From Ancylobacter mangrovi (GTDB lineage Bacteria > Pseudomonadota > Alphaproteobacteria > Rhizobiales > Xanthobacteraceae): a stretch of DNA of 64,000 nt. The notes under the pieces were generated by a model that saw only the letters and a program-made list of their open reading frames with translations, searched no databases and was not told the DNA's origin. A program made the translations under genes and the position numbers. Location: assembly GCF_024752355.1 (NCBI RefSeq), contig NZ_JANTHZ010000005.1, positions 1 to 64,000 on the forward strand. Direction: 5' to 3'. Shown here piece after piece: positions 36,682 through 49,761 of this stretch. Numbering within the stretch: the first letter of the stretch is position 1; each line of letters begins with the position of its first letter.

Positions 36682-37962
36682 TCAGGCGCCGTGGCCGGCT
36701 TCCGCTGCTTCCTGCTTCAGCGCGTCGAGCTGGGCACGGATATGGGCGGCTTCGGCGGCGGTGGTGGCGAGGCTTATCGCCGACATGAAGTCGTCGCGCG
36801 CCTCGCGGGGCCGGCCGAGCTGCATCAGCAGCGCGCCGCGCAGCCCGTGATAGTGGAAATAGCCCGACAGCCGGTCGCCCAGCGGCTCAACCATGGCGAG
36901 CGCCGCCGCCGGACCGCGCAGCTTCGACACCGCCACCGCCCGGTTCAGCGTCACCACCGGCGAGGGCTGCATGATCTCCAGCGTCGCGTAGAGCGCGTCG
37001 ATCCCGGCCCAGTCGGTCTCCTCCGGCCGGGCGGCGCGGGCGTGCAGCGCCGCGATCGCCGCCTGCACCTGGTAGGGGCCGGGCCGGCGATGGCGGATCG
37101 CCTTGTCGAGCAGGGCGAGACCCTCGGCGATCATCGGCCCGTTCCACAGCCGGCGGTCCTGCCTGTCGAGCAGGATCACCGTCCCCTCCCCGTCGAAGCG
37201 CGCCGCGGCCCGGGCGTGCTGGAGCAGCATCAGCGCGGCGAGCCCCATGATCTCGGGTTCGGCCGGAAACAGCCGCAGCAGCAGGCGGGCGAGGCGGATC
37301 GCCTCCTCGCACAGCGGCTCGCGCGCCGCGGCGGTGTCGCCCGCGGCCGAATAGCCCTCGTTGAACACGAGATAGATCATCGCCGCCACGACACCGAGCC
37401 GCTCGGCGCGCTCCACCGCGCCCGGCGCCTCGAACGGCACTCCGGCCTCGCCGAGCTGGGCCTTGGCAATGCGCGCCTTGGCGCGGGTGATGCGCTGCTC
37501 CATCGCCGCCTCGCCGACGAGGAAGGCGCGCGCGATCTGGCCGACCGAGAGGCCGGAGACGATGCGCAGCGCGAGCGCGATCTGCTGCGTCGCCGGCAGC
37601 TCGGGATGGCAGCAGATGAACAGGAGCCGCAGCACGTCGTCGCGGTAGTGCGAGCTGTCGAGGCGCTCGGCGATCTCGGCCTCGGCGTCCTCCGCGTCGG
37701 AAAAGGTCTCCTCCGGCGGCAGCGGCGCCTGCTTCGCCCGCCGGCGCACCGCGTCGATCGCGACGTTGCGGCCGACGAAGACCAGCCAGGCCGCGGCGTC
37801 GCGCGGCGGGCCCTTCTGCGGCCAGGTCTTCAGCGCGCGCAGGCACGCTTCCTGGAAGGCTTCCTCGGCGAGGTCGAGGTCATGGAAATAGCGCAGCAGC
37901 GCGGCGAGCGCCTGCGGCCGGGCGGCGGCGAGCGTCGTGCCGATCCACGGCGCCTCGTCCAT
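36682..37962 (-). CDS. ECF42-type sigma factor with C-terminal TPR-like extension
   Basis: 426 residues from the ATG at 37962, which overlaps the preceding stop by one base (TGATG). The sigma-2 region (LLRYFHDLDLAEEAFQEACLRAL) and sigma-4 region (LALRIVSGLSVGQIARAFLVGEAAMEQRITRAKARI) are followed by about 230 residues of helical, TPR-like sequence (DUF6596). This length and the neighbouring DGPF gene define ECF group 42, which has no classic membrane anti-sigma factor; the C-terminal extension is thought to control activity. It is the last gene of a five-gene operon. Confidence 0.9.
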   Translation of the reverse strand: MDEAPWIGTTLAAARPQALAALLRYFHDLDLAEEAFQEACLRALKTWPQKGPPRDAAAWLVFVGRNVAIDAVRRRAKQAPLPPEETFSDAEDAEAEIAERLDSSHYRDDVLRLLFICCHPELPATQQIALALRIVSGLSVGQIARAFLVGEAAMEQRITRAKARIAKAQLGEAGVPFEAPGAVERAERLGVVAAMIYLVFNEGYSAAGDTAAAREPLCEEAIRLARLLLRLFPAEPEIMGLAALMLLQHARAAARFDGEGTVILLDRQDRRLWNGPMIAEGLALLDKAIRHRRPGPYQVQAAIAALHARAARPEETDWAGIDALYATLEIMQPSPVVTLNRAVAVSKLRGPAAALAMVEPLGDRLSGYFHYHGLRGALLMQLGRPREARDDFMSAISLATTAAEAAHIRAQLDALKQEAAEAGHGA

Positions 37963-38333
37963 CACGGCCTCGCGCCGCCGTCATGGAACAGGCCGATCGG
38001 CCGGATCTCGTAGGAGCCGCCCGGATTGGCCGCGCCGAGCTCGCGGGCGATGTCGAGCGCCTCCTCCAGATTCGCGCAGTCGAGGACGTAGAAGCCGAGA
38101 AGCTGCTCCTTGGTCTCGGCGAAGGGGCCGTCGAGCACCAGCGGCGGGTCGCGGTCCTTGCGCAGCGTGGTGGCGGCGGTGGTCGGCAGCAGCCGGGCCA
38201 CCGGGCCGAGCTTACCCGCCTTGGCGAGCCGCTCCTGCACCACGGCGAGTTTCTGCATCACCGCATCGTCCTCCTCCTTGGTCCAGGCGCAGACGACATC
38301 TTCCTGATGGTAGCAAAGGAGGGTGTAGAGCAT
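37962..38333 (-). CDS. YCII-related DGPF-domain protein
   Basis: 123 residues from the ATG at 38333 (MLYTLLCYHQEDVV). It has the DGPF motif in LVLDGPFAETKEQLLGFYVLDC and the closing SYEIRPIGLF. DGPF proteins are near-universal genetic partners of ECF42 sigma factors; their biochemical role is unknown, although the fold is that of small ferredoxin-like enzymes. The stop overlaps the sigma gene start. Confidence 0.93.
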   Translation of the reverse strand: MLYTLLCYHQEDVVCAWTKEEDDAVMQKLAVVQERLAKAGKLGPVARLLPTTAATTLRKDRDPPLVLDGPFAETKEQLLGFYVLDCANLEEALDIARELGAANPGGSYEIRPIGLFHDGGARP

Positions 38334-38356
38334 GGCGGGCCTTTTCCGTGTTGAGG

Positions 38357-38674
38357 TCAGCCGCCGCTGATGGCGGTGATGACGAAGACGTCCGCGCCGG
38401 CGGCGAGCGGGGTCGACAGGCTGGCGCGGCGGCCGCCGACGAAGACGTTGATGTGGCGCCGGATCGCCGGCGTCTCGTCGCACAGGCGCTCGCGCATGCC
38501 GGGCCAGAGCGCGTCGAGCCCGTCCACCATCTCCGCCACGTCGCGGGCGGAGACGGAAACGAGCCGCCCGGCGCCGGGGAACAGGACGACGAGATGAGGC
38601 GGCAGGCGCACGAGGACCGGCGCGCGCGCCGCGTCCCCTCGCTCCTGCAACGTCCCCTCGCCCGTCGTCCTCAT
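38357..38674 (-). CDS. MoaD/ThiS-like beta-grasp protein with terminal Gly-Gly
   Basis: 105 residues. It has the pattern of small sulfur-carrier beta-grasp proteins (VLVRLPPHLVVLF, INVFVGGRR, LAAGADVFVITAISGG) and ends exactly in Gly-Gly, the residue pair adenylated and thiocarboxylated in MoaD and ThiS. No ThiF/MoeB-type activating enzyme, thiamine or molybdopterin gene is nearby. It sits 25 bases after the BNR-repeat gene with a good ribosome-binding site (GAGGA). Role unknown. Confidence 0.8.
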   Translation of the reverse strand: MRTTGEGTLQERGDAARAPVLVRLPPHLVVLFPGAGRLVSVSARDVAEMVDGLDALWPGMRERLCDETPAIRRHINVFVGGRRASLSTPLAAGADVFVITAISGG

Positions 38675-40965: not shown

Positions 40966-41286
40966 ATGGACGGAATCGAGGGTCGCGCACGCGCGATATG
41001 CGAGATCGGCCTGCGGGGCGGAGCCCTGATTAACGAGATCGATCTCCCCGCTGCGGTAGATCGCTACTGGCCGGTGTTCGCGGTCGAAATCGCCGCCGGC
41101 GTGATAAATCTCGATGCCCGCTGCTCGCTCGGCGACCTCGAAGCCGCGCTTGCCGCCTATGTCGCGTGGAAGGAGCGCCCGATGAGCGTTCCCCCGCTTC
41201 CCCCGGTCGATCCCCTCGCCCCGTCCCGCCGCCGGCCACGCCCGCGCGGCCGGATAGCTTGCGGCCCCACACTCAAGACTCCATAG
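40966..41286 (+). CDS. Possible small protein of unknown function
   Basis: 106 codons from ATG to TAG. The first ~70 residues (ICEIGLRGGALINEIDLPAAVDRYWPVFAVEIAAGVINLDARCSLGDLEAALAAYVAWKE) look protein-like, while the Pro/Arg-rich tail does not. There is no clear ribosome-binding site. If it is not a gene, the whole 40754-41429 stretch is empty apart from an AT-richer patch near 40912-40965. I do not recognise a family. Confidence 0.35.
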   Translation: MDGIEGRARAICEIGLRGGALINEIDLPAAVDRYWPVFAVEIAAGVINLDARCSLGDLEAALAAYVAWKERPMSVPPLPPVDPLAPSRRRPRPRGRIACGPTLKTP

Positions 41287-41429: not shown

Positions 41430-43139
41430 ATGCCGCGCAAGCCTTCCAACATTCTCTACGGCGCAGAGGACAAGGTCCCGCTCGGAACGCTGGTCAGCCT
41501 CGGCGTGCAGCACGCCTCGCTCGCCCTGCTGTTCGTGGTCTATCCGCTCGTCGCCGCCGCCGAGGCGGGCCTGTCCTTCGAGGCGACGCAGAGCCTCATC
41601 ACCAGCTGCGTCATCTTCATGGGGATTGCGACCATACTGGAATGCTGGCCGCGCTTCGGGTCCGGCGTCCTGCTGGTGCAGATTCCCAACACCTCGCACC
41701 TGCCGATGGCGGTGCAGTCGCTCGCGGCCGGCGGGCCGGCGCTCTACGCCGCCATGAGCCTCGTCGCCGCCGTCTCCCAGCTCTCGCTGACCTTCTTCAC
41801 CGGCGCGCTGCGCAAGCTGTTCCCGCCGGAGGTCTGCGGCGTCGCCGTTACCATGCTCGGCGTCGCGCTGGCCGAGCCCGCGCTGCGGCGCATGTTCGGC
41901 CTCGCCCACCAGGCGAGCAGCGCCGGCATGGACCTGCGCTACCCGATGGTCAGCTTCGCCGCGCTGGTCGTCATCGTCGTGCTGGCCATCTTCTCGCGCG
42001 GCATGCTGCGCCTGTTCGCGGTCGCCATCGGCACCGGCGTGGGCTGGCTCCTCGCCCATTATGTCGGCCTCACCCACGGGCCGGCCGGCCGCGCCCTCGC
42101 CGACCTGCCTCTCATCGACCTGCCCGCCATCGCCTGGCCCGGCCTCGCCTTCTCCTGGGCCATGCTGCCGGCGGCGATCCTCACCGGCATCATCTCGGCG
42201 GTGGACATGATCAGCACGGTCGTCTCCATGCAGCGCATGGACGACGCCGACTGGCGCCGCGCCGACATGGGGCAGGCCGCGCGCGCCATCCGTCCCAACA
42301 CGGTGAGCGACATGGGCGCCGCCCTCACCGGCGGCTTCGCCAGCGCCTCCTCATCGGCCGCCATCGGCGTCGCCTTCGCCACCGGCGCCACGGCGTGGCG
42401 GGTGGGCGTGGCTTCGGGCATCATCATCCTGCTCGCCGCCTTCTCGCCCCGGCTCATCGGCGCGCTGTCGGTGATCCCGGACCCGGTGGTCGGCGCGATC
42501 CTGGTCTACAGCTCCGCCTTCCTCGTGGTCGCCGGCATGGAGCTCATCCTCTCCCGCCGCCTCAGCGACCGGCGGATCTTCACCGTCGGCCTCGCCATCA
42601 TGGCGGGCCTCGCGGTCGCGATCCTGCCCGAGCTGGTGCAGGCGACGCCGAGCTGGGCGCACCCCATCCTCGGCTCGCCGCTCTCGGTCTCCACCGGCGT
42701 CGCCATCGGGCTGAACCTGTTCTTCCGCATCGGCATCCGGCAGGAGGCCTCGGTGCCGGTGACCGTGGACGACAACCCGTTCGAGGCCACCACCACCTTC
42801 CTCGAGTACCAGGGCGACATCTGGGGCGCGCGCCGCGACGTCATCGCCTCCGCCATCCCCGTCGTCGCCGAGGCGGCGGAGATGCTGCTCGACACCGGCG
42901 TCGCCGAGGACGGGCTCGTCATGCGCGCGCGCTTCGACGAGAACGACTTCGACGTCACGCTGCTCTATCGCGGCGCGCCGATAGAGATCCCGACGCTCCG
43001 CCCCTCGCCCGAGGACCTGCTGGGCGACGCCGCGGCGGTGGCGCGCTTCGTCGGCTACATGCTCTCCAAGCGCGCCGACAAGCTGGTGCTCGGCAAGCTG
43101 GGCGAGCGGCAGGCACTCACGCTGCGCTTCGAGCACTGA
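41430..43139 (+). CDS. NCS2 nucleobase permease with C-terminal degenerate GHKL-like domain
   Basis: 569 residues from the ATG at 41430. Residues 15-440 are a 14-helix NCS2 (uracil/xanthine) transporter, with PNTSHLPMAVQSLAAGG near helix 3 and a conserved acidic residue in helix 8 (SAVDMIST, Asp259). The usual NxG motif of helix 10 is changed to SSSAAIG. Residues about 448-569 are soluble and follow the RsbW-like protein encoded downstream, but where that has an N-box asparagine and DDGDPF this has EAAEMLLDTG and YRGAPI, so ATP binding is probably lost. It heads a permease-STAS-kinase run. Substrate unknown. Confidence 0.85.
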   Translation: MPRKPSNILYGAEDKVPLGTLVSLGVQHASLALLFVVYPLVAAAEAGLSFEATQSLITSCVIFMGIATILECWPRFGSGVLLVQIPNTSHLPMAVQSLAAGGPALYAAMSLVAAVSQLSLTFFTGALRKLFPPEVCGVAVTMLGVALAEPALRRMFGLAHQASSAGMDLRYPMVSFAALVVIVVLAIFSRGMLRLFAVAIGTGVGWLLAHYVGLTHGPAGRALADLPLIDLPAIAWPGLAFSWAMLPAAILTGIISAVDMISTVVSMQRMDDADWRRADMGQAARAIRPNTVSDMGAALTGGFASASSSAAIGVAFATGATAWRVGVASGIIILLAAFSPRLIGALSVIPDPVVGAILVYSSAFLVVAGMELILSRRLSDRRIFTVGLAIMAGLAVAILPELVQATPSWAHPILGSPLSVSTGVAIGLNLFFRIGIRQEASVPVTVDDNPFEATTTFLEYQGDIWGARRDVIASAIPVVAEAAEMLLDTGVAEDGLVMRARFDENDFDVTLLYRGAPIEIPTLRPSPEDLLGDAAAVARFVGYMLSKRADKLVLGKLGERQALTLRFEH

Positions 43140-43272
43140 CGATCGTTTCGCGCGCGCCGACTTCCCTTTCGTCGTCTTGCGCGCCCGACCCTTTGTGTTT
43201 AGTTCTGAGCACGCTCATGCGACAGGATCGACGGCTACCCGCCCCTGCGGGACGGCACCTTCCTGTTGACGC

Positions 43273-43635
43273 ATGACGGACCGACGAGAGCTGGAAAGCG
43301 CGATGCAGATCGACCGGCTGGTGGAAGGCAATACCGTCGTGACGGTGGTCAAGGGCCGCCTCGACAGCAGCTCCTCGCCGCGCCTCGACGAGATGCTCGC
43401 CGTGATCCCCGATGGCAGCACCGCGGTGCTGCTCGACTTCGAAGAGCTGACCTATATCAGCTCGGCAGGGCTGCGCGTGGTGCTGAAGGCAGCCAAGCTC
43501 GCCCGCTCCTCCAGCGTCGCGCTGGCGGTCTGCAGCCTCACGCCGCAGGTGCACGAGGTGTTCGAGGTCAGCGGCTTCTCCTCGCTGATCCCCATTCACC
43601 AAAGCCGCGAAACGGCACTTGCTTCCTTTACGTAG
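43273..43635 (+). CDS. STAS-domain anti-sigma-factor antagonist
   Basis: 120 residues, a stand-alone STAS domain of the SpoIIAA/RsbV type. The signature YISSAGLRVVL (61-71) puts Ser64 at the position phosphorylated in SpoIIAA. In partner switches the unphosphorylated form captures an RsbW-type kinase; phosphorylation frees it and a PP2C phosphatase resets it. A likely kinase is encoded 39 bases downstream and a likely phosphatase at 48589..49761. An internal ATG at 43303 with GGAAAG upstream is an alternative start. Confidence 0.93.
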   Translation: MTDRRELESAMQIDRLVEGNTVVTVVKGRLDSSSSPRLDEMLAVIPDGSTAVLLDFEELTYISSAGLRVVLKAAKLARSSSVALAVCSLTPQVHEVFEVSGFSSLIPIHQSRETALASFT

Positions 43636-43674
43636 GGGTGTCTTTCTGAGGTGCTTCAGCCCTCGGACGGAAAC

Positions 43675-44100
43675 ATGACGCTCCGTGAGATGGATGTCCG
43701 CCTCCCCAACGACCTGTCGCAGATGCCGGCGCTCGTCGCGCGGCTCGACAGCTTCGCGGAAGCGGCCGATCTGTCGCCCAAGGCGACCCACCGGCTCCAG
43801 CTCGCGGTCGACGAGTTCGTCAACAACGCCGTCGATTACGGCTATCCCGACGGGCGCCCCGGCGAGATCGGCGTGCAGGTGCGCTGCGCCGACGATTCGG
43901 TCGAGCTCACGCTGAGCGACGACGGCGATCCGTTCGATCCCTTCACCGCGCCGTCGCCGGACCTCGACGGCACCCTCGACGAGCGGCGCATCGGCGGGCT
44001 GGGCGTCCATCTGATCCGCACGCTCGCGCGCAGCTTCGCCTATCGCCGCGAGAACGGGCGCAATGTGGTCACCCTCTCCCTCGCCCGCGACGCGGCATAG
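43675..44100 (+). CDS. RsbW/SpoIIAB-like serine kinase (GHKL ATPase)
   Basis: 141 residues from the ATG at 43675 (a GTG at 43651 would add eight). The ATP-binding boxes are intact: N-box AVDEFVNNAVDYGYPDG (Glu47, Asn51), D-box LSDDGDPFDPF (82-83) and G-box GGLGVHLIRTL (107-117). Such proteins phosphorylate STAS antagonists and sequester a partner, classically a sigma factor. No sigma-B-like gene is near. It ends 18 bases from the convergent Na/Pi transporter gene. Confidence 0.92.
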   Translation: MTLREMDVRLPNDLSQMPALVARLDSFAEAADLSPKATHRLQLAVDEFVNNAVDYGYPDGRPGEIGVQVRCADDSVELTLSDDGDPFDPFTAPSPDLDGTLDERRIGGLGVHLIRTLARSFAYRRENGRNVVTLSLARDAA

Positions 44101-44118
44101 CCGCCGGCTTCCCGCCCG

Positions 44119-45723
44119 TCACAGCCCCTCGGTCTGGGCGCGGTGAACCTGCGTGAAGCCGTTCACCAGCCGACGCGACAGCCACACGATCCGCTCGAAC
44201 AGCACCGTCATGCGGAACAGCCCGTCGAGCGCCTGCGGCGGGACGCCGGCCTGCGTCGACAGCCGGTGTCGCAGCTCGTCCATGAGCTGGTCGCGATGCC
44301 CGAGCAGGGTCAGCACCAGCTCGGGGTCCTCCGCGCCAAGACTGACGGCATGGTCCGCCACCGCCTCCAGCAGCGCGTGCAGCGCCTCGATCAGCCTGCC
44401 CGCGGCGGGAAGCTGGCGCGCCGGCGCCGAGGCTTCGACGAACTCGGCCAGCGCCTCGTGCAGCGCTGCGGCCGTCCCCGCCGCATCGTCCAGCAGCAGC
44501 GCGCGCGACACCCGCCGCGCCGAGAGCTCACGGTCGAGCAGCGAGGCGAGATAGGACTTCACCAAGCTCGCCAGCCGCGTCCCGGCGACGCTCAGCTGCG
44601 CCGGCGGCGGGGTCTCCTGCACCTTCTCTTCACGCACATGGTCGAGCATCAGCGGCAGCCGGGCGGAAAGCCGCGCCAGCTCGCGCATGGCGAGGTCGAG
44701 CGCGGTGCCGGGGTCCGAGAGCGCCTCGCGCATGAGGAAGGCCGGCTCGCCCAGCGTCTCCGCTGGGTTCGAGGCCATCCGCGCCACCAGCCGGCGCGTC
44801 GGCATCTCGGCGAGATTGGTGATCAGCGCGCCCCCCGCCTGCGCGATTACGAACAGCACGGCGAGCTGCGCCGCCGCGCTCTCGCCCATCAGGCCGAACA
44901 GCCGGCCCATCTGCTGCGGCTCGGCGAGACCGTAGAGGTAGAGCGCCAGCAGCAGCAGCGAGCCGCCGAGCTTCTGCATCACCTGCAACCCGAAGACGAT
45001 ACGCCCGGCCCGGTTCTCGCCCGGGATCAGCAGCGCATTGTTGAGCGCCGACGCGGTGTTCGCGCCGATGATCAGAGGCAGCGCGGCGGCGAGGTCGAGC
45101 AGGTCGCTGCTCACCGCCGCGACGGCGATCGCCGCGGCGACCGAGGAGGATTGCGCCGCCAGCGCGAAGGCCGCGCCGATGCCGGCGAGCAGCAGCGGCG
45201 ACTGCAGCGCCGCCGCCCACCAGGCGTCGTGCATCAGCGCCTCGCGCAGCGGGCCGACGGTCTCCGAGACCAGGTGCATGCCGAACAGCAGCAGCCCGGC
45301 GCCCAGCGCCGCGTCGAGCATCCGCCGCAGCCGGTCGCCCCGCGCCAGCTTGAAATAGGTGGCGAAGCCGACGACGCCGATCACCAGCCCTGCCGCCACC
45401 GAGGTGTCGATGGCGACGATGATCGGTAGCAGCGCGGTGCCGACATTGGCCCAGGTCGGCGCCAGCAGCGCCGCCCCCTCTCCCAGCACACCGCCCTTCA
45501 CGAAGGAGATGATGATCCAGGAGACGGCGGTCGAGCTCTGCGTCGCCAGCCCGGCGACGATGCCGCTCAGCGCGCAACTCACAGGCCCGCGCAGCGCGGC
45601 GGCGAAGGCAACCCGGGCGCGCCGCCCCACCAGCGGCACGAGGTTCGACGACAGCCCGCGCACGCCGAGGAAGAACAGACCCAGCCCGCTCATGAGGGAG
45701 GCGATGGTGGCGATGGTGCTCAA
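44119..45723 (-). CDS. Na/Pi-cotransporter-family protein with PhoU-like tail
   Basis: 534 residues from a TTG at 45723 (GGGGAA eleven bases upstream, protein beginning STIATIASLMSGLGLFFLGV); ATG 45693 is the alternative. The duplicated QSS motifs ATQSSTAVSW and AAQSSSVAAAIAV are the hallmark of the NptA/SLC34-like family. About nine membrane helices precede a helical PhoU-like cytoplasmic domain (from about residue 340). Members move phosphate with sodium or serve as phosphate sensors. It is the last gene of the minus-strand signalling run. Confidence 0.9.
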   Translation of the reverse strand: MSTIATIASLMSGLGLFFLGVRGLSSNLVPLVGRRARVAFAAALRGPVSCALSGIVAGLATQSSTAVSWIIISFVKGGVLGEGAALLAPTWANVGTALLPIIVAIDTSVAAGLVIGVVGFATYFKLARGDRLRRMLDAALGAGLLLFGMHLVSETVGPLREALMHDAWWAAALQSPLLLAGIGAAFALAAQSSSVAAAIAVAAVSSDLLDLAAALPLIIGANTASALNNALLIPGENRAGRIVFGLQVMQKLGGSLLLLALYLYGLAEPQQMGRLFGLMGESAAAQLAVLFVIAQAGGALITNLAEMPTRRLVARMASNPAETLGEPAFLMREALSDPGTALDLAMRELARLSARLPLMLDHVREEKVQETPPPAQLSVAGTRLASLVKSYLASLLDRELSARRVSRALLLDDAAGTAAALHEALAEFVEASAPARQLPAAGRLIEALHALLEAVADHAVSLGAEDPELVLTLLGHRDQLMDELRHRLSTQAGVPPQALDGLFRMTVLFERIVWLSRRLVNGFTQVHRAQTEGL

Positions 45724-45868
45724 GGCAGGACGGTTCCCCGGATGGAGTCTTTCCCACGGACGACGGCACGCAGGTGTCCGCGTCGGATGAAAGACCGGGT
45801 CGGTTTGGTGCAGCGCAGCGTGAGGCAGGTCGGCGGCCAGCACAAGCCGCCGGAGACGGCGGGCGGCC

Positions 45869-46237
45869 TCAGCCCGGTGCGAGGAAGGCGTTGATCTTGG
45901 ACAGCAGGCGCGGCATTTCCACCGGCTTGGTGTCGAAATCGTCGCAGCCTGCCGCCATCGCCTCCTCGCGGTCCTGCGCCATGGCGTGGGCGGTCAGGGC
46001 GATGACGGGGATCGCCGCGGTCTCCGCGTTGCCCTTCACCTGCCGCGTCGCCTCCCAGCCGTCGAGCACCGGCAGGCTCATGTCCATGAGGATCAGGTCC
46101 GGCTTCTGCGCCACGGCGAGGTCCACCCCCTCCCGGCCGTTCACGGCGACGATCACCTCGAAGCCATTGCGCGTCAGCCGCCGCGAAAGCATGTCGCGGT
46201 TCATCTCGTTGTCTTCCACGAGCAGGATCTTCGCCAT
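45869..46237 (-). CDS. Single-domain response regulator (CheY/DivK-like)
   Basis: 122 residues, a receiver domain only. VEDN (7-10), the phospho-acceptor Asp52 in LILMDMSLP, Thr in ALTAHAM and Lys104 in DTKP are all present. There is no output domain, so it must signal by binding, perhaps back to the hybrid kinase encoded 16 bases upstream. Confidence 0.94.
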   Translation of the reverse strand: MAKILLVEDNEMNRDMLSRRLTRNGFEVIVAVNGREGVDLAVAQKPDLILMDMSLPVLDGWEATRQVKGNAETAAIPVIALTAHAMAQDREEAMAAGCDDFDTKPVEMPRLLSKINAFLAPG

Positions 46238-46253
46238 CGCCTGAACGTCCCGT

Positions 46254-48569
46254 CTACTTGGCCACCGGCCGGGCCGGCTTTTCCTGCCCGGCGATCGCCG
46301 CCAGCGCCGAGCCGAGCGTGCCGATCGGCTGGGCGCTCTTGCTCAGGATCAGCAGCGTGTTTCGTGCGAGGAAGCTGCGCTCGTCCTCGGTCAGCTCCTT
46401 GGCCGTGAGCACGACCACCGGCAGGTCCGCGAAGTCCGGCCGCTGGCGCACCTGCTCGAGGAAGGTGAAGCCGTCCATCTCCGGCATCATCAGGTCCAGC
46501 AGCACCAGCGAGGGTCGCGGGTGGCGGTCGAGCCATTCCAGCGCCTCGCGCCCGTTGGCGGCCTCGATCGCGGTCAGCCCTACGCCCTCGATGGTCGTGC
46601 GCACCATGGCGCGCACATGCGGATCGTCGTCGACGACCAGCACCGCGTGCTCGTCGCCCGGGGCGAATTTATGGATCAGCGCGATCAGCCGCTGCCGGTC
46701 GATCGGCTTGGTCATGTATTCGGCCGCGCCGAGCGAATAGCCGAGATTCCGGTCGTCGACGATGGTGAGCATGATCACCGGGATATGCTCCAGCGCCGGC
46801 TCGGACTTCATGATGCCCAGCACCGACCAGCCGTCGACCTTCGGCATCATCACGTCGAGCGTCACGATGTCCGGCGGGTCGGTGCGCATGATGTTGAGCG
46901 CCTCGATCCCGTCGCGGGCATGGCGCAGCACATAGCCTTCCTTGCCCAGCGTCGCGGTCAGCACCTCGTGCACCGCCGGGTCGTCGTCCACCACCAGAAC
47001 GGTGATCGCGCCCGGATCGGCGACCGCGCCGGTGTCGATCTCCGGAAGCTCGGCGGCGACCTCGGCCTCGCGCGCGACCGGCAGGTCGATGGTGAAGGTC
47101 GAGCCCTTGCCCGGCTCGCTGGTCACCGTGATGTTCCCGCCCAGCATCACCGCGAAATGCTTGGTGATGGTGAGGCCGAGCCCGGTGCCGCCGAAATTGC
47201 GCGTGGTGGAGGAATCCGCCTGCGTGAACGCCTGGAACAGCCGGCCGAGCTGTTCCTCGGTCATGCCGATGCCGCTGTCGGTCACCGCGAAGCGGATGAA
47301 GCCGCCATCCTCGCTCTCATGGCGCGACAGGTGCAGCGCCACCTCACCCTGCTTGGTGAACTTGGCGGCGTTGCTGAGCAGGTTGATGAGGCTCTGCTTG
47401 AGCTTGGTGACGTCCGTGCGCAGCGTGCCGATGTCCTTCGGACAGTCGATGACGAAGCGGTTCTCGTTCTTCGCCATCATCGGGCCGACGATGGTCTTCA
47501 CCTCCTCGACCATGCGGGCGAGGAACACCTGCTCCAGATAGACGTCCATGCGCCCGGCCTCGATCTTCGACAGGTCGAGGATGTCGTTGATCAGCCCCAG
47601 CAGGTGCTTGCCGGCGCCCTGGATCTTGTCGAGATCCGCGACCATGGCCGTGTTGCCCTCGTCAGCGGCGTCCTCGGCGAGGATCTCGCTGTAGCCGATG
47701 ATGGCGTTGAGCGGCGTGCGCAACTCGTGGCTCATATTGGCGAGGAAGGCGGACTTGACCCGGCTGGCGGATTCGGCCGCCTCCTTGGCCTCGCGAAGCT
47801 GCTGCTCCATGCGCACGCGGTCAGAGATATCGACGAAGGTGGCGATCACCGCAGGTGTGCTGCGGAACTCGAGCGGCTCGTGCGAGACCATGGTGCAGAT
47901 CTCGGTGCCGTCGGCGCGCGGCAGGTAGAATTCGCGGCCCTCGGCGAGCGGGGTGAGCATCAGCTCGGCCATCTCCGCGCTCTTGGCCGGATCGGCGAAC
48001 AGCTCGGCCATCGGACGGTCGATGAGGTCGCGCGTGTCGCGACCGACCAGCCGCCCGAAGCAGCCATTGGCGTGACGCACGGCGCGCTTCTCGACATCCA
48101 TGATCAGCAGGCCGACCGGCGCGGCGGCATCGATGGCGCGAAGCTGCTCCTCGTCCTCGCGCAGCTTCATCTCGGCGAGCTTGCGCTCGGTGATGTCGGT
48201 GTAGATGGCGATGAAGCCGCCGCCCGGCACCGGGTCGCGGCGCACCTCGAGGATGGTGCCGTCCGGCCGCACCCGCTCGAAGGAGTGGGAGTGGTCGAGC
48301 TGCGCCACCCGCTTGGCGAGCGCGGTCTCGATGTCGACGTCGCCGAACTCGCCGCGCGAGCCGAGATAGCGGATGTAGTCCTCGAAGGTGTGCTCGGTGC
48401 CGAGGAACTCCGCCGGCATGTCGAGATACTCGCAGAACAGCGTGTTCCACGTCACCAGCCGGTGCTTGGCGTCGTACATGGCGACGCCCTGGGACATGTT
48501 CTCCAGCGTCGCGCGCAGCAGGGTCGCCTCGCGGCCCGCCTGCGATTCGTCCAGCGCGTTCTCCGGCAT
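46254..48569 (-). CDS. Hybrid histidine kinase with PAS domains and two receivers
   Basis: 771 residues from the ATG at 48569 (GGGAAG seven bases upstream). Two PAS domains (about 15-130 and 140-255; NMSQGVAMYDAKHRL, GLLIMDVEKRAVRHANG), a HisKA segment with His281 in NMSHELRTPLN, a catalytic domain with GGTGLGL, and two C-terminal receivers with Asp572 (LDVMMPKVDG) and Asp692 (LDLMMPEMDG). No membrane segment, so it probably senses a cytoplasmic cue. The second receiver lacks the usual KP loop (ILSKSAQP instead). It lies between the PP2C regulator and the single-domain regulator. Confidence 0.94.
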   Translation of the reverse strand: MPENALDESQAGREATLLRATLENMSQGVAMYDAKHRLVTWNTLFCEYLDMPAEFLGTEHTFEDYIRYLGSRGEFGDVDIETALAKRVAQLDHSHSFERVRPDGTILEVRRDPVPGGGFIAIYTDITERKLAEMKLREDEEQLRAIDAAAPVGLLIMDVEKRAVRHANGCFGRLVGRDTRDLIDRPMAELFADPAKSAEMAELMLTPLAEGREFYLPRADGTEICTMVSHEPLEFRSTPAVIATFVDISDRVRMEQQLREAKEAAESASRVKSAFLANMSHELRTPLNAIIGYSEILAEDAADEGNTAMVADLDKIQGAGKHLLGLINDILDLSKIEAGRMDVYLEQVFLARMVEEVKTIVGPMMAKNENRFVIDCPKDIGTLRTDVTKLKQSLINLLSNAAKFTKQGEVALHLSRHESEDGGFIRFAVTDSGIGMTEEQLGRLFQAFTQADSSTTRNFGGTGLGLTITKHFAVMLGGNITVTSEPGKGSTFTIDLPVAREAEVAAELPEIDTGAVADPGAITVLVVDDDPAVHEVLTATLGKEGYVLRHARDGIEALNIMRTDPPDIVTLDVMMPKVDGWSVLGIMKSEPALEHIPVIMLTIVDDRNLGYSLGAAEYMTKPIDRQRLIALIHKFAPGDEHAVLVVDDDPHVRAMVRTTIEGVGLTAIEAANGREALEWLDRHPRPSLVLLDLMMPEMDGFTFLEQVRQRPDFADLPVVVLTAKELTEDERSFLARNTLLILSKSAQPIGTLGSALAAIAGQEKPARPVAK

Positions 48570-48588
48570 GGCGTCACTTCCCATCGAT

Positions 48589-49761
48589 CTAGACTTCCCG
48601 TGCGCCGAAGGTGAGCAGAATGGCGGCCATGTCGTCAAAGGCGGGCAGCCCGGCCTCGAACGCCCGGACCTGCGTGGCAAGCCGCGTGAGGACCTGCCCC
48701 CCCGCCCCGTCGGCGAAGAAGGCACCCACCCGGTCCTCGCCGAACAGTTCGCCGGCCGCGCTCTGCGCCTCGGTGAAACCGTCCGTCACCACCAGCAGCC
48801 GGTCGCCCTCGTTCAGATCGACCTGCGCCGCCTGGTAGTCGAAGCCTTCCACCACGCCCAGCGGCGGCCCGCCCGGGCCGCCGAGCCGCTCCACGCCCCC
48901 GTCCGCGCCCTGCAGATAGGGCGGCACATGGCCCGCGCGCACATAGGCGAGCCGGCCGGTCGCGACGTCCACGCTCGCCAGCACGAAGGTGACGAACATG
49001 CACCCCGCATTGCCGCGCGCCAGCCCGTCATTGGCGATCGAGACCGCCCGCGCCGGGTCGGCGAACAGTTCGGCGGCGTCCGGTCGGCCGGAGAGCGCGC
49101 GGAACATGGAATGGGTGCGCGCCATCATCAGCGCCGCCGCCGCGCCCTTGTCGGAAACGTCGCCGATGGCGAGCACCATCAGCCCGTCGCCAACCGGGAA
49201 ATAATCGACGAGATCGCCGCCGACCTCCTTGGCCGGCTCCAGCAGCGCATCGACGTCGAGCCGGCGTCCGGCGACGGCGCCGGCGAAGGAAGGCGGCACC
49301 AGCGAAAGCTGAAGCGTGCGCGCCTCATTGAGCTCGACCTGCTTGCGCCGGAGCTCCTCGCGGGTCCGGTCGCGCAGCGCCTTCTTCTCCAGCGTCGCGA
49401 GCACGCGGGCACGCAGCAGCGTCGGGTTGAACGGCTTGAACAGGAAGTCGTCGGCGCCGAGCTCGATGCAGCGCACCACCGGGTCGATCTCATTGAGCGC
49501 CGAGATGACGATCACCGGAATGTCGTTGATCCGCCCGTCGCTGCGTAACGCCTCGAGCACGCCGAAGCCGTCGAGCTCGGGCATCATGATGTCGAGCAGC
49601 ACGAGGTCGAAGGCCGCCTGGCCGATGGCGGCGAGCGCCTCAACGCCGTCGGCGGCCTCCTCGATCCGCGAGAAGCCGAGCCGGCGCAACCGGCGGATCA
49701 GCAGGTCGCGGTTCTCGGCGACATCGTCGACCACCAGAATCGCCGCGTTCTGGTCTGCCAT
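48589..49761 (-). CDS. Response regulator with PP2C (SpoIIE/RsbU) phosphatase output
   Basis: 390 residues from the ATG at 49761. A receiver (1-125; Asp57 in LLDIMMPELDG, Lys109 in FKPF) and a coiled-coil linker (ALRDRTREELRRKQVELNEARTLQLSLVP) lead to a PP2C domain with the metal-binding GGDLVDYF (Asp183), GDVSDKG (201-207), VVTDGFTEA and a final DDMAAILL. Such proteins dephosphorylate STAS antagonists when their receiver is phosphorylated. It heads the minus-strand run and provides the phosphatase for the STAS/RsbW pair. Confidence 0.93.
   Translation of the reverse strand: MADQNAAILVVDDVAENRDLLIRRLRRLGFSRIEEAADGVEALAAIGQAAFDLVLLDIMMPELDGFGVLEALRSDGRINDIPVIVISALNEIDPVVRCIELGADDFLFKPFNPTLLRARVLATLEKKALRDRTREELRRKQVELNEARTLQLSLVPPSFAGAVAGRRLDVDALLEPAKEVGGDLVDYFPVGDGLMVLAIGDVSDKGAAAALMMARTHSMFRALSGRPDAAELFADPARAVSIANDGLARGNAGCMFVTFVLASVDVATGRLAYVRAGHVPPYLQGADGGVERLGGPGGPPLGVVEGFDYQAAQVDLNEGDRLLVVTDGFTEAQSAAGELFGEDRVGAFFADGAGGQVLTRLATQVRAFEAGLPAFDDMAAILLTFGAREV

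Follow-up and report, generated by a model that had tools for sequence, protein, structure and literature searches.

A permease subfamily with an RsbW-like pseudokinase tail, recurrently linked to STAS genes, and a candidate sigma-factor-free partner switch in Ancylobacter mangrovi

The stretch of DNA analysed here (the window; 64,000 nucleotides, positions 1 to 64,000 of contig NZ_JANTHZ010000005.1) comes from Ancylobacter mangrovi and carries, at positions 41,430 to 49,761, a block of seven genes in which the parts of a STAS/RsbW/PP2C partner switch stand beside two membrane carriers. One of these carriers, an NCS2-type permease, ends in a tail that resembles the anti-sigma kinase RsbW in fold and lacks its catalytic Asn and Asp. 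What is new here is that this tail marks a permease subfamily extending over several phyla. We see an even chance that the block is a partner switch without a sigma factor, in which the dead kinase tail of the permease serves as the reader.

The tail was recognised both by profile comparison and by predicted structure. An alignment of 19 tails matched the corresponding alignment of 13 RsbW-like kinases along 114 columns (hhalign E 6.6e-6, probability 84.8), and the Pfam family HATPase_c_2 matched four of the 19 tails, weakly (best E 2.5e-4). The AlphaFold2 model of the tail had a predicted local distance difference test score (pLDDT) of 89.3 and a predicted template modelling score (pTM) of 0.82. 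Using Foldseek against the PDB, this model gave template modelling (TM) scores of 0.57–0.62 to anti-sigma kinases (SpoIIAB 1til, 1tid and 1l0o; RsbW/RsbV 6m36 and 6m37; UsfX/RsfB 8ih8; SigF/anti-sigma 8jzt) and of 0.32–0.50 to the other listed chains. The SpoIIAB/RsbW/UsfX-type chains were matched at E 2.5e-3 to 1.9e-2, and several of these structures (SpoIIAB, RsbW/RsbV, UsfX/RsfB) were solved with STAS or sigma partners. An alignment artefact or a STAS domain was ruled out as an account of the tail by the profile match and predicted fold. At the positions given by the profile alignment, the N-box Asn was found in 0 of 84 distinct tails and the G1 Asp likewise in 0 of 84, the latter position being occupied by Tyr, His, Trp or Phe; the G1 Gly, a residue of the fold, was retained in 82 of 84. 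The tail thus has the Bergerat-type fold of GHKL proteins, by model and by profile, without the Asn and Asp of the ATP site, a loss that rules out an active kinase; it reads as a pseudokinase that would no longer bind ATP in the usual way. Two further features are conserved, an FDE motif (each residue in 82 of 84 distinct tails) and a terminal His (80 of 84). Among the matches listed (E up to 1), tail-like domains on non-NCS2 proteins of the fetched loci were just the open reading frames (ORFs) at RsbW positions. The sequence-only reading of this DNA had called the region a GHKL-like tail, a description that profile and fold now bear out, with the amendment that the catalytic residues are missing.

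The core of the permease is predicted to have the UraA fold. The full-length AlphaFold2 model (pLDDT 85.6) best matched SVCT1, UapA and UraA in the PDB (TM score normalised to target 0.65–0.83), and SLC26 entries matched likewise. Together with the NCS2/NAT family profile, this fold places the protein among the NCS2 carriers; the conserved Glu/Gln of transmembrane helix 10 (TM10) is not found, position 310 of the window protein being Ala. All 40 tail-less NCS2 proteins had Glu or Gln at the TM10 position; in its place the 87 tail-bearing rows (near-copies among them, and the window protein counted twice) had without exception Ala, Ser, Gly, Thr or Pro. At the acidic position of TM8, all 40 tail-less proteins had Glu or Asp, and the 87 tail-bearing rows had mostly Asp (53) or Lys (29). 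By tail and core residues alike, the tail-bearing permeases are a distinct subfamily. The TM10 and TM8 residues bind substrate in UraA and UapA. Since the TM10 Glu/Gln is lost and TM8 changed, a nucleobase substrate should not be assumed, and the earlier proposal that the switch gates nucleobase transport is weakened. Of six NCBIfam models matched, the window permease scored above cut-off solely for the broad NF037981, its matches to TIGR03173 and TIGR00801 lying below cut-off. The subfamily draws attention to proteins that xanthine/uracil permease models recognise and that lack a hallmark residue of the substrate site.

Tail-bearing permeases were found in Alpha- and Betaproteobacteria, several 'Delta' groups, Bacillota, Armatimonadota, Elusimicrobiota, Sumerlaeota, Cloacimonadota and others. 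Sampling genomes evenly across the class gave 14 of 289 with the tail, counting that of the window, a figure that may be low because at most 15 candidates were scored per genome. Further loci, taken from the best 80 of 149 confirmed relatives, came from GTDB contigs that were scanned with a tail-bearing permease alignment. For the comparison of neighbourhoods, in which STAS, RsbW, PP2C and Na/Pi genes were counted, 97 tail-bearing loci were assembled, the scan contributing 79 and the class sample 18; they include identical permeases fetched twice (L099/L157, L149/L156 and L143/L160), and some of the contigs are too short to show neighbours.

A locus was scored as linked when a single-domain STAS gene (frame of at most 300 aa) lay within 8 kb of the permease. 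On this definition 31 of the 97 tail-bearing loci were linked, 13 of the 31 being copies of the window's block. When permeases were clustered at 60% identity, 11 of 35 clusters were linked (13 of 35 with the long-frame STAS matches of L124 and L151, which the tally excludes) as compared with none of the 40 tail-less NCS2 loci (Fisher 8.5e-5); taking a single member of each cluster at random gave about 9 of 35 (5.6e-4), clustering at 50% identity gave 5 of 21 (0.0034) and one random member of those clusters about 3 of 21 (0.037), all of these Fisher values being optimistic because 8 of the 40 controls come from the window's family (7 from its genus, partly near-copies) and L202 is cut short. 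The controls omit some tail-less rows (those close to a contig end, tandem copies and extra copies from the genus), as well as long-frame rows of unclear tail state. Since our own STAS, RsbW and PP2C models had been built from tail-linked loci, we made an independent Pfam check, for STAS only, in 37 control genomes; it revealed one SulP-type domain, in a 550-aa frame of G082, 7.7 kb from a control permease. In the permease tree (72 sequences) the linkage label required at least 11 changes on well-supported branches, so the linkage is not one frozen neighbourhood. All 35 linked STAS rows, among them near-copies and two with long frames, had the phospho-acceptor Ser. The association of STAS gene and permease noticed in the window is strengthened by these data, tail-bearing permeases adjoining STAS genes repeatedly in other lineages. 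At the level of whole genomes, a STAS frame of at most 300 aa was found in 10 of 12 tail-bearing genomes, six of the 12 belonging to one genus, versus 11 of 25 others; in a further one of the 25, G129, the short STAS frame has an internal stop.

Among loci L107–L171 (n = 65; L074–L106 excluded), 18 were linked, 15 of these with PP2C and 11 with RsbW, and neither PP2C nor RsbW was found beside the 47 unlinked loci. STAS was the most constant neighbour, lying within 300 bp of the permease in 11 of the 65 loci; two of these 11 cases are the same Zavarzinia locus, where STAS was the sole neighbour found. Other arrangements were PP2C-STAS-permease in Syntrophales, PP2C-RsbW-STAS-permease in G153 and a divergent STAS gene in Bosea, Mesorhizobium, Kaistia and Oryzicola. 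The sensor part of the PP2C protein varied among the loci examined (REC, HAMP, Cache-HAMP, 5TM-LYT, GAF). Judged by gene and domain content, this is a constant core with exchangeable inputs, of which the kinase-less Syntrophales runs are possibly the minimal form. The Syntrophales runs of PP2C, STAS and permease are compact, spanning L107:2226-5790 (with a 5TM-LYT-type PP2C) and L110:8232-11710. An apparent RsbW-PP2C fusion in the Bosea-type loci was ruled out, the two matches lying in different frames. In L154 (G219), L156 (G229) and L149, two NCS2-type genes adjoin each other, and such pairs are possible heteromeric permeases.

Within the genus the whole block is conserved. The relatives that brought named records were mostly Ancylobacter species, and the full set of seven genes, arranged and oriented as in the window, was present in 23 of the 24 orthologous loci retrieved from the genus. 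Orthologues of the Na/Pi carrier (at least 61% identity), the kinase (at least 57%) and PP2C (at least 70%) occurred in the same 25 of 30 genus genomes, as did the permease orthologue, which was also matched in part on a contig of 3.2 kb in G021 (8% contamination is listed for this genome). Where the block is split, in G022, with permease, STAS and kinase on contig C8 and Na/Pi and PP2C on C6, both halves are retained. Co-occurrence of the two halves had been set beforehand as a test that could refute the sequence-only reading, and the 25 genomes sharing kinase, PP2C and Na/Pi carrier uphold the reading on this point. The accompanying idea that the switch perhaps gates phosphate transport is weakened, since the Na/Pi gene was linked within the window's genus only. 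Shared descent explains part of this genus pattern.

Four of the five genomes without the block (G006, G018, G021 and G023) carry another locus with a permease (35–36% identical), PP2C, kinase and STAS, accompanied in two of the four by a Na/Pi-type gene of about 30% identity. No permease of this 35–36% class was found in the 25 block-bearing genomes by the permease search of the genus, and the distribution of the alternative loci (L058, L059, L060 and L073) looks complementary to that of the window's block. In the alternative locus of G023 (L060) the phosphatase is of HAMP-SpoIIE type and an ABC_sub_bind protein is encoded nearby. The window's own genome holds a second permease with a more divergent tail (L061, G000:C17:57644-59266); no relative of the window STAS, RsbW or PP2C proteins was found in the 19.6 kb fetched around it, and histidine-kinase and receiver-like matches lie 6–9 kb upstream.

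Partner switches of the Rsb and Spo type usually have a sigma factor as client, and the sequence-only reading had noted that none of the SigB/SigF kind lies nearby. This now extends to the whole genome (22 contigs), in which no SigB/F/G-type sigma factor scored above the TIGR02980 cut-off. The four weaker matches to this model proved to be RpoD, an RpoD-like factor and a pair of RpoH-type factors, none of them of the expected SigB/F/G kind. The window kinase was the only RsbW-type protein found in a PF13581 search of the genome, the other five matches being weak (1.7e-6 or worse) and in frames of 483–914 aa; the window STAS protein was the only short-frame STAS match, the other four lying in frames of 410–913 aa. 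With a single RsbW-type kinase, a single short STAS protein and no SigB/F/G factor, the switch has no obvious sigma client.

Several known systems resemble the block in part. The Bacillus RsbU/V/W and SpoIIE/SpoIIAA/SpoIIAB switches share the PP2C/SpoIIE phosphatase, the STAS antagonist with a phosphorylatable Ser and the GHKL serine kinase with intact boxes; unlike them, the window system comes without the cognate sigma factor and has an extra dead RsbW-like domain fused to a permease. Nearest by parts is RbaV-RbaW-RbaY of Rhodobacter capsulatus, which (PMC3999984) likewise comprises a STAS protein, an RsbW-like kinase and a receiver-PP2C with no cognate sigma identified, and acts on production of the gene transfer agent. 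The window block has this same set of parts and, unlike RbaVWY, adds the pseudokinase-tailed permease, a hybrid kinase and the Na/Pi carrier; the likeness is one of parts. The SLC26/SulP carriers have the same UraA-type 7+7 fold and a cytoplasmic regulatory C-terminus tied to STAS, but there the STAS domain is covalent, whereas in the window the covalent domain is GHKL-like, of the STAS-binding type, and STAS is a separate gene. PbuX, UraA and UapA, as NCS2/NAT symporters, share fold and Pfam family with the window permease, which adds the GHKL tail and lacks the TM10 Glu/Gln. A precedent for a separate STAS protein acting on a transporter is MlaB, which is reported to bind and stabilise the ABC-transporter ATPase MlaF with its phospho-site residue in the interface (PMC7367683), and for which that paper gives no experimental evidence of phosphorylation; the partner there is an ABC ATPase, and here would be a GHKL pseudokinase on a UraA-fold carrier. 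The word 'permease' is absent from the accessible part of the RbaVWY text (PMC3999984) and of a STAS review (PMC8256260), and neither 'C-terminal' nor 'fused' occurs in that of an NCS2 classification paper (PMC6308229). Among the matches listed in literature searches, no description of a tailed permease combined with a STAS switch was found, and the pseudokinase-tailed subfamily appears, within those matches, to be undescribed.

In the mechanism we favour, the RsbW-like kinase would phosphorylate the STAS protein on its conserved Ser and so free it from the permease tail; the receiver-PP2C, on a signal from the hybrid kinase and perhaps also from the lone receiver, would dephosphorylate it and restore docking. 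Dephosphorylated STAS would dock on the RsbW-like pseudokinase tail and alter the activity of the permease, active kinase and dead tail being two alternative partners of STAS; the Na/Pi carrier might be another client or serve the same physiology. We infer each step of binding, phosphorylation or transport, as well as the role given to the Na/Pi carrier, from the profile and fold of the tail, its lost catalytic residues, the recurrent linkage, the conserved Ser, the co-presence within the genus and the MlaB precedent. Slightly less probable, in our judgement, is the wider proposal that UraA-fold proteins with a dead RsbW-like tail are a widespread membrane client or receptor of STAS phospho-switches, so that membrane traffic rather than transcription would be controlled directly.

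Several observations weigh against the favoured mechanism. A single-domain STAS gene was not found within 8 kb in 66 of the 97 tail-bearing loci (one of which, L078, is a copy of the block with a STAS frame above the length limit), and the unlinked loci include all 17 from the Xanthobacter/Azorhizobium/Aquabacter cluster and, in the class sample, 16 of 18, the other 2 being linked. G126 and G139, whose tails are divergent, had no single-domain STAS protein genome-wide (PF01740, E 0.001). With so many loci unlinked, either tail and STAS are in part paired in trans or their pairing does not extend to all members. None of the Syntrophales loci had a linked kinase, RsbW-type proteins being encoded elsewhere in those genomes. 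Linkage inside one genus is expected from common descent as well. As for the tail itself, the window's own copy alone matched no Pfam family, and its first PDB match by E-value was the histidine kinase AgrC (2.1e-3), no match falling below 0.001.

The same tail and linkage evidence would also serve if the permease were the input rather than the target, that is, a transceptor in which a ligand on the atypical NCS2 core alters the tail, which then holds or frees STAS or the kinase, with the output elsewhere. The uniform loss of the TM10 Glu/Gln suggests an altered substrate site or lost coupled transport and so suits this arrangement, but the remainder of the UraA fold is predicted to be intact, the neighbouring phosphatases already have sensors of their own, and no conserved output gene was found to accompany the block beyond the genus, the systematic count covering STAS, RsbW, PP2C and Na/Pi; we regard a transceptor as unlikely. 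Similarly improbable is an ordinary partner switch on transcription or another target, of the kind proposed for RbaVWY, with the permease a neighbour kept by descent. The RpoD, RpoD-like and two RpoH-type sigmas of the genome remain conceivable clients for such a switch; against it, STAS is recurrently linked to tail-bearing and not to tail-less permeases across unrelated lineages and arrangements, the permease tail is itself RsbW-like, and the genome search for SigB/F/G sigmas stayed below cut-off.

It may also be asked whether the tail binds STAS at all, since a domain for dimerisation or kinase recruitment, pairing with the RsbW kinase or with the other permease subunit, would account for the many tails without a linked STAS gene. 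The GHKL anti-sigma kinases SpoIIAB and RsbW dimerise, and the FDE motif and terminal His of the tail are conserved. STAS is, however, a more constant neighbour than the kinase (18 versus 11 of 65 loci), and it occurs without a kinase found nearby in L107, L109, L110, L123, L146, L149 and L156, so that we think this account very unlikely.

If docking of STAS on the pseudokinase tail is the true account, partner switching would also set the activity of membrane carriers, with a pseudokinase reading the phosphorylation state of STAS. The tailed permeases would then mirror the SLC26 carriers, having the same core with the STAS partner in trans, and this would be relevant to the question of why anti-sigma switches and SLC26 carriers alike contain STAS domains. 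The block would also offer, in a soil bacterium, a compact test system made up of a STAS protein, a kinase, a PP2C phosphatase and a single permease.

Genes were called from the ORF list, the sequence and Pfam domain matches (Table 1). The seven genes, their order and the 18-base gap at which the two runs meet, all described in the sequence-only reading, were confirmed in this way, the kinase stop ending at 44100 and the low end of the Na/Pi ORF lying at 44119. On the minus strand the order of transcription is receiver-PP2C, hybrid kinase, lone receiver and Na/Pi-type carrier. The ATP boxes of the kinase, reported earlier as intact, were seen to be so in the alignment (DEFVNN, DDGDPF and GGLG). 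The STAS protein carries an ISSAG motif, and its phospho-acceptor, earlier numbered Ser64, keeps that number with the ATG at 43273; comparison with relatives makes a start at 43303 likely, which turns it into Ser54. By the same comparison the kinase is likely to start at 43675, and the hybrid kinase probably starts at about 48570–48584.

Table 1. Genes and domains of the block, in window coordinates.
Feature	Position	Strand	Evidence
NCS2 (SLC23/UraA-fold) permease with C-terminal pseudokinase tail, 569 aa	41430-43139	+	Pfam PF00860 Xan_ur_permease E 1.6e-37; AlphaFold2; TM10 Glu/Gln replaced by Ala
Permease tail, RsbW/SpoIIAB-like GHKL, without ATP-site Asn and Asp	42762-43136	+	hhalign, AlphaFold2, Foldseek, residue counts
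Single-domain STAS protein (RsbV/SpoIIAA-like)	43273-43635	+	PF01740 E 4.5e-16; TIGR00377 above cut-off
RsbW-like serine kinase; N, G1 and G2 boxes intact	43651-44100	+	PF13581 HATPase_c_2 E 4.6e-28
Na/Pi-cotransporter-type membrane protein, about 545 aa, start uncertain	44119-45843	-	PF02690 Na_Pi_cotrans E 2.8e-26, two stretches
Lone response-regulator receiver, single domain	45869-46237	-	PF00072 Response_reg E 7.8e-26
Hybrid histidine kinase, PAS-PAS-HisKA-HATPase-REC-REC	46254-48725	-	Pfam
Receiver-PP2C (SpoIIE domain) phosphatase, RbaY/RsbY-like	48589-49761	-	PF07228 E 1.4e-41; PF00072 E 2.2e-27

Directly upstream of the permease lies a small ORF (40966-41286) without a Pfam match. About 3.5 kb upstream of the permease, on the minus strand, is a gene for an ECF-type sigma factor with a DUF6596 C-terminus (36682-37965). 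A search of the related loci L074–L106 (n = 33; flanks of at most 10 kb) gave no match to it at E 1e-10, and none was found in the shorter flanks of same-genus loci, which rules it out as a member of the block. A YCII-domain gene follows it, the pair spanning 36682-38483 on the minus strand.

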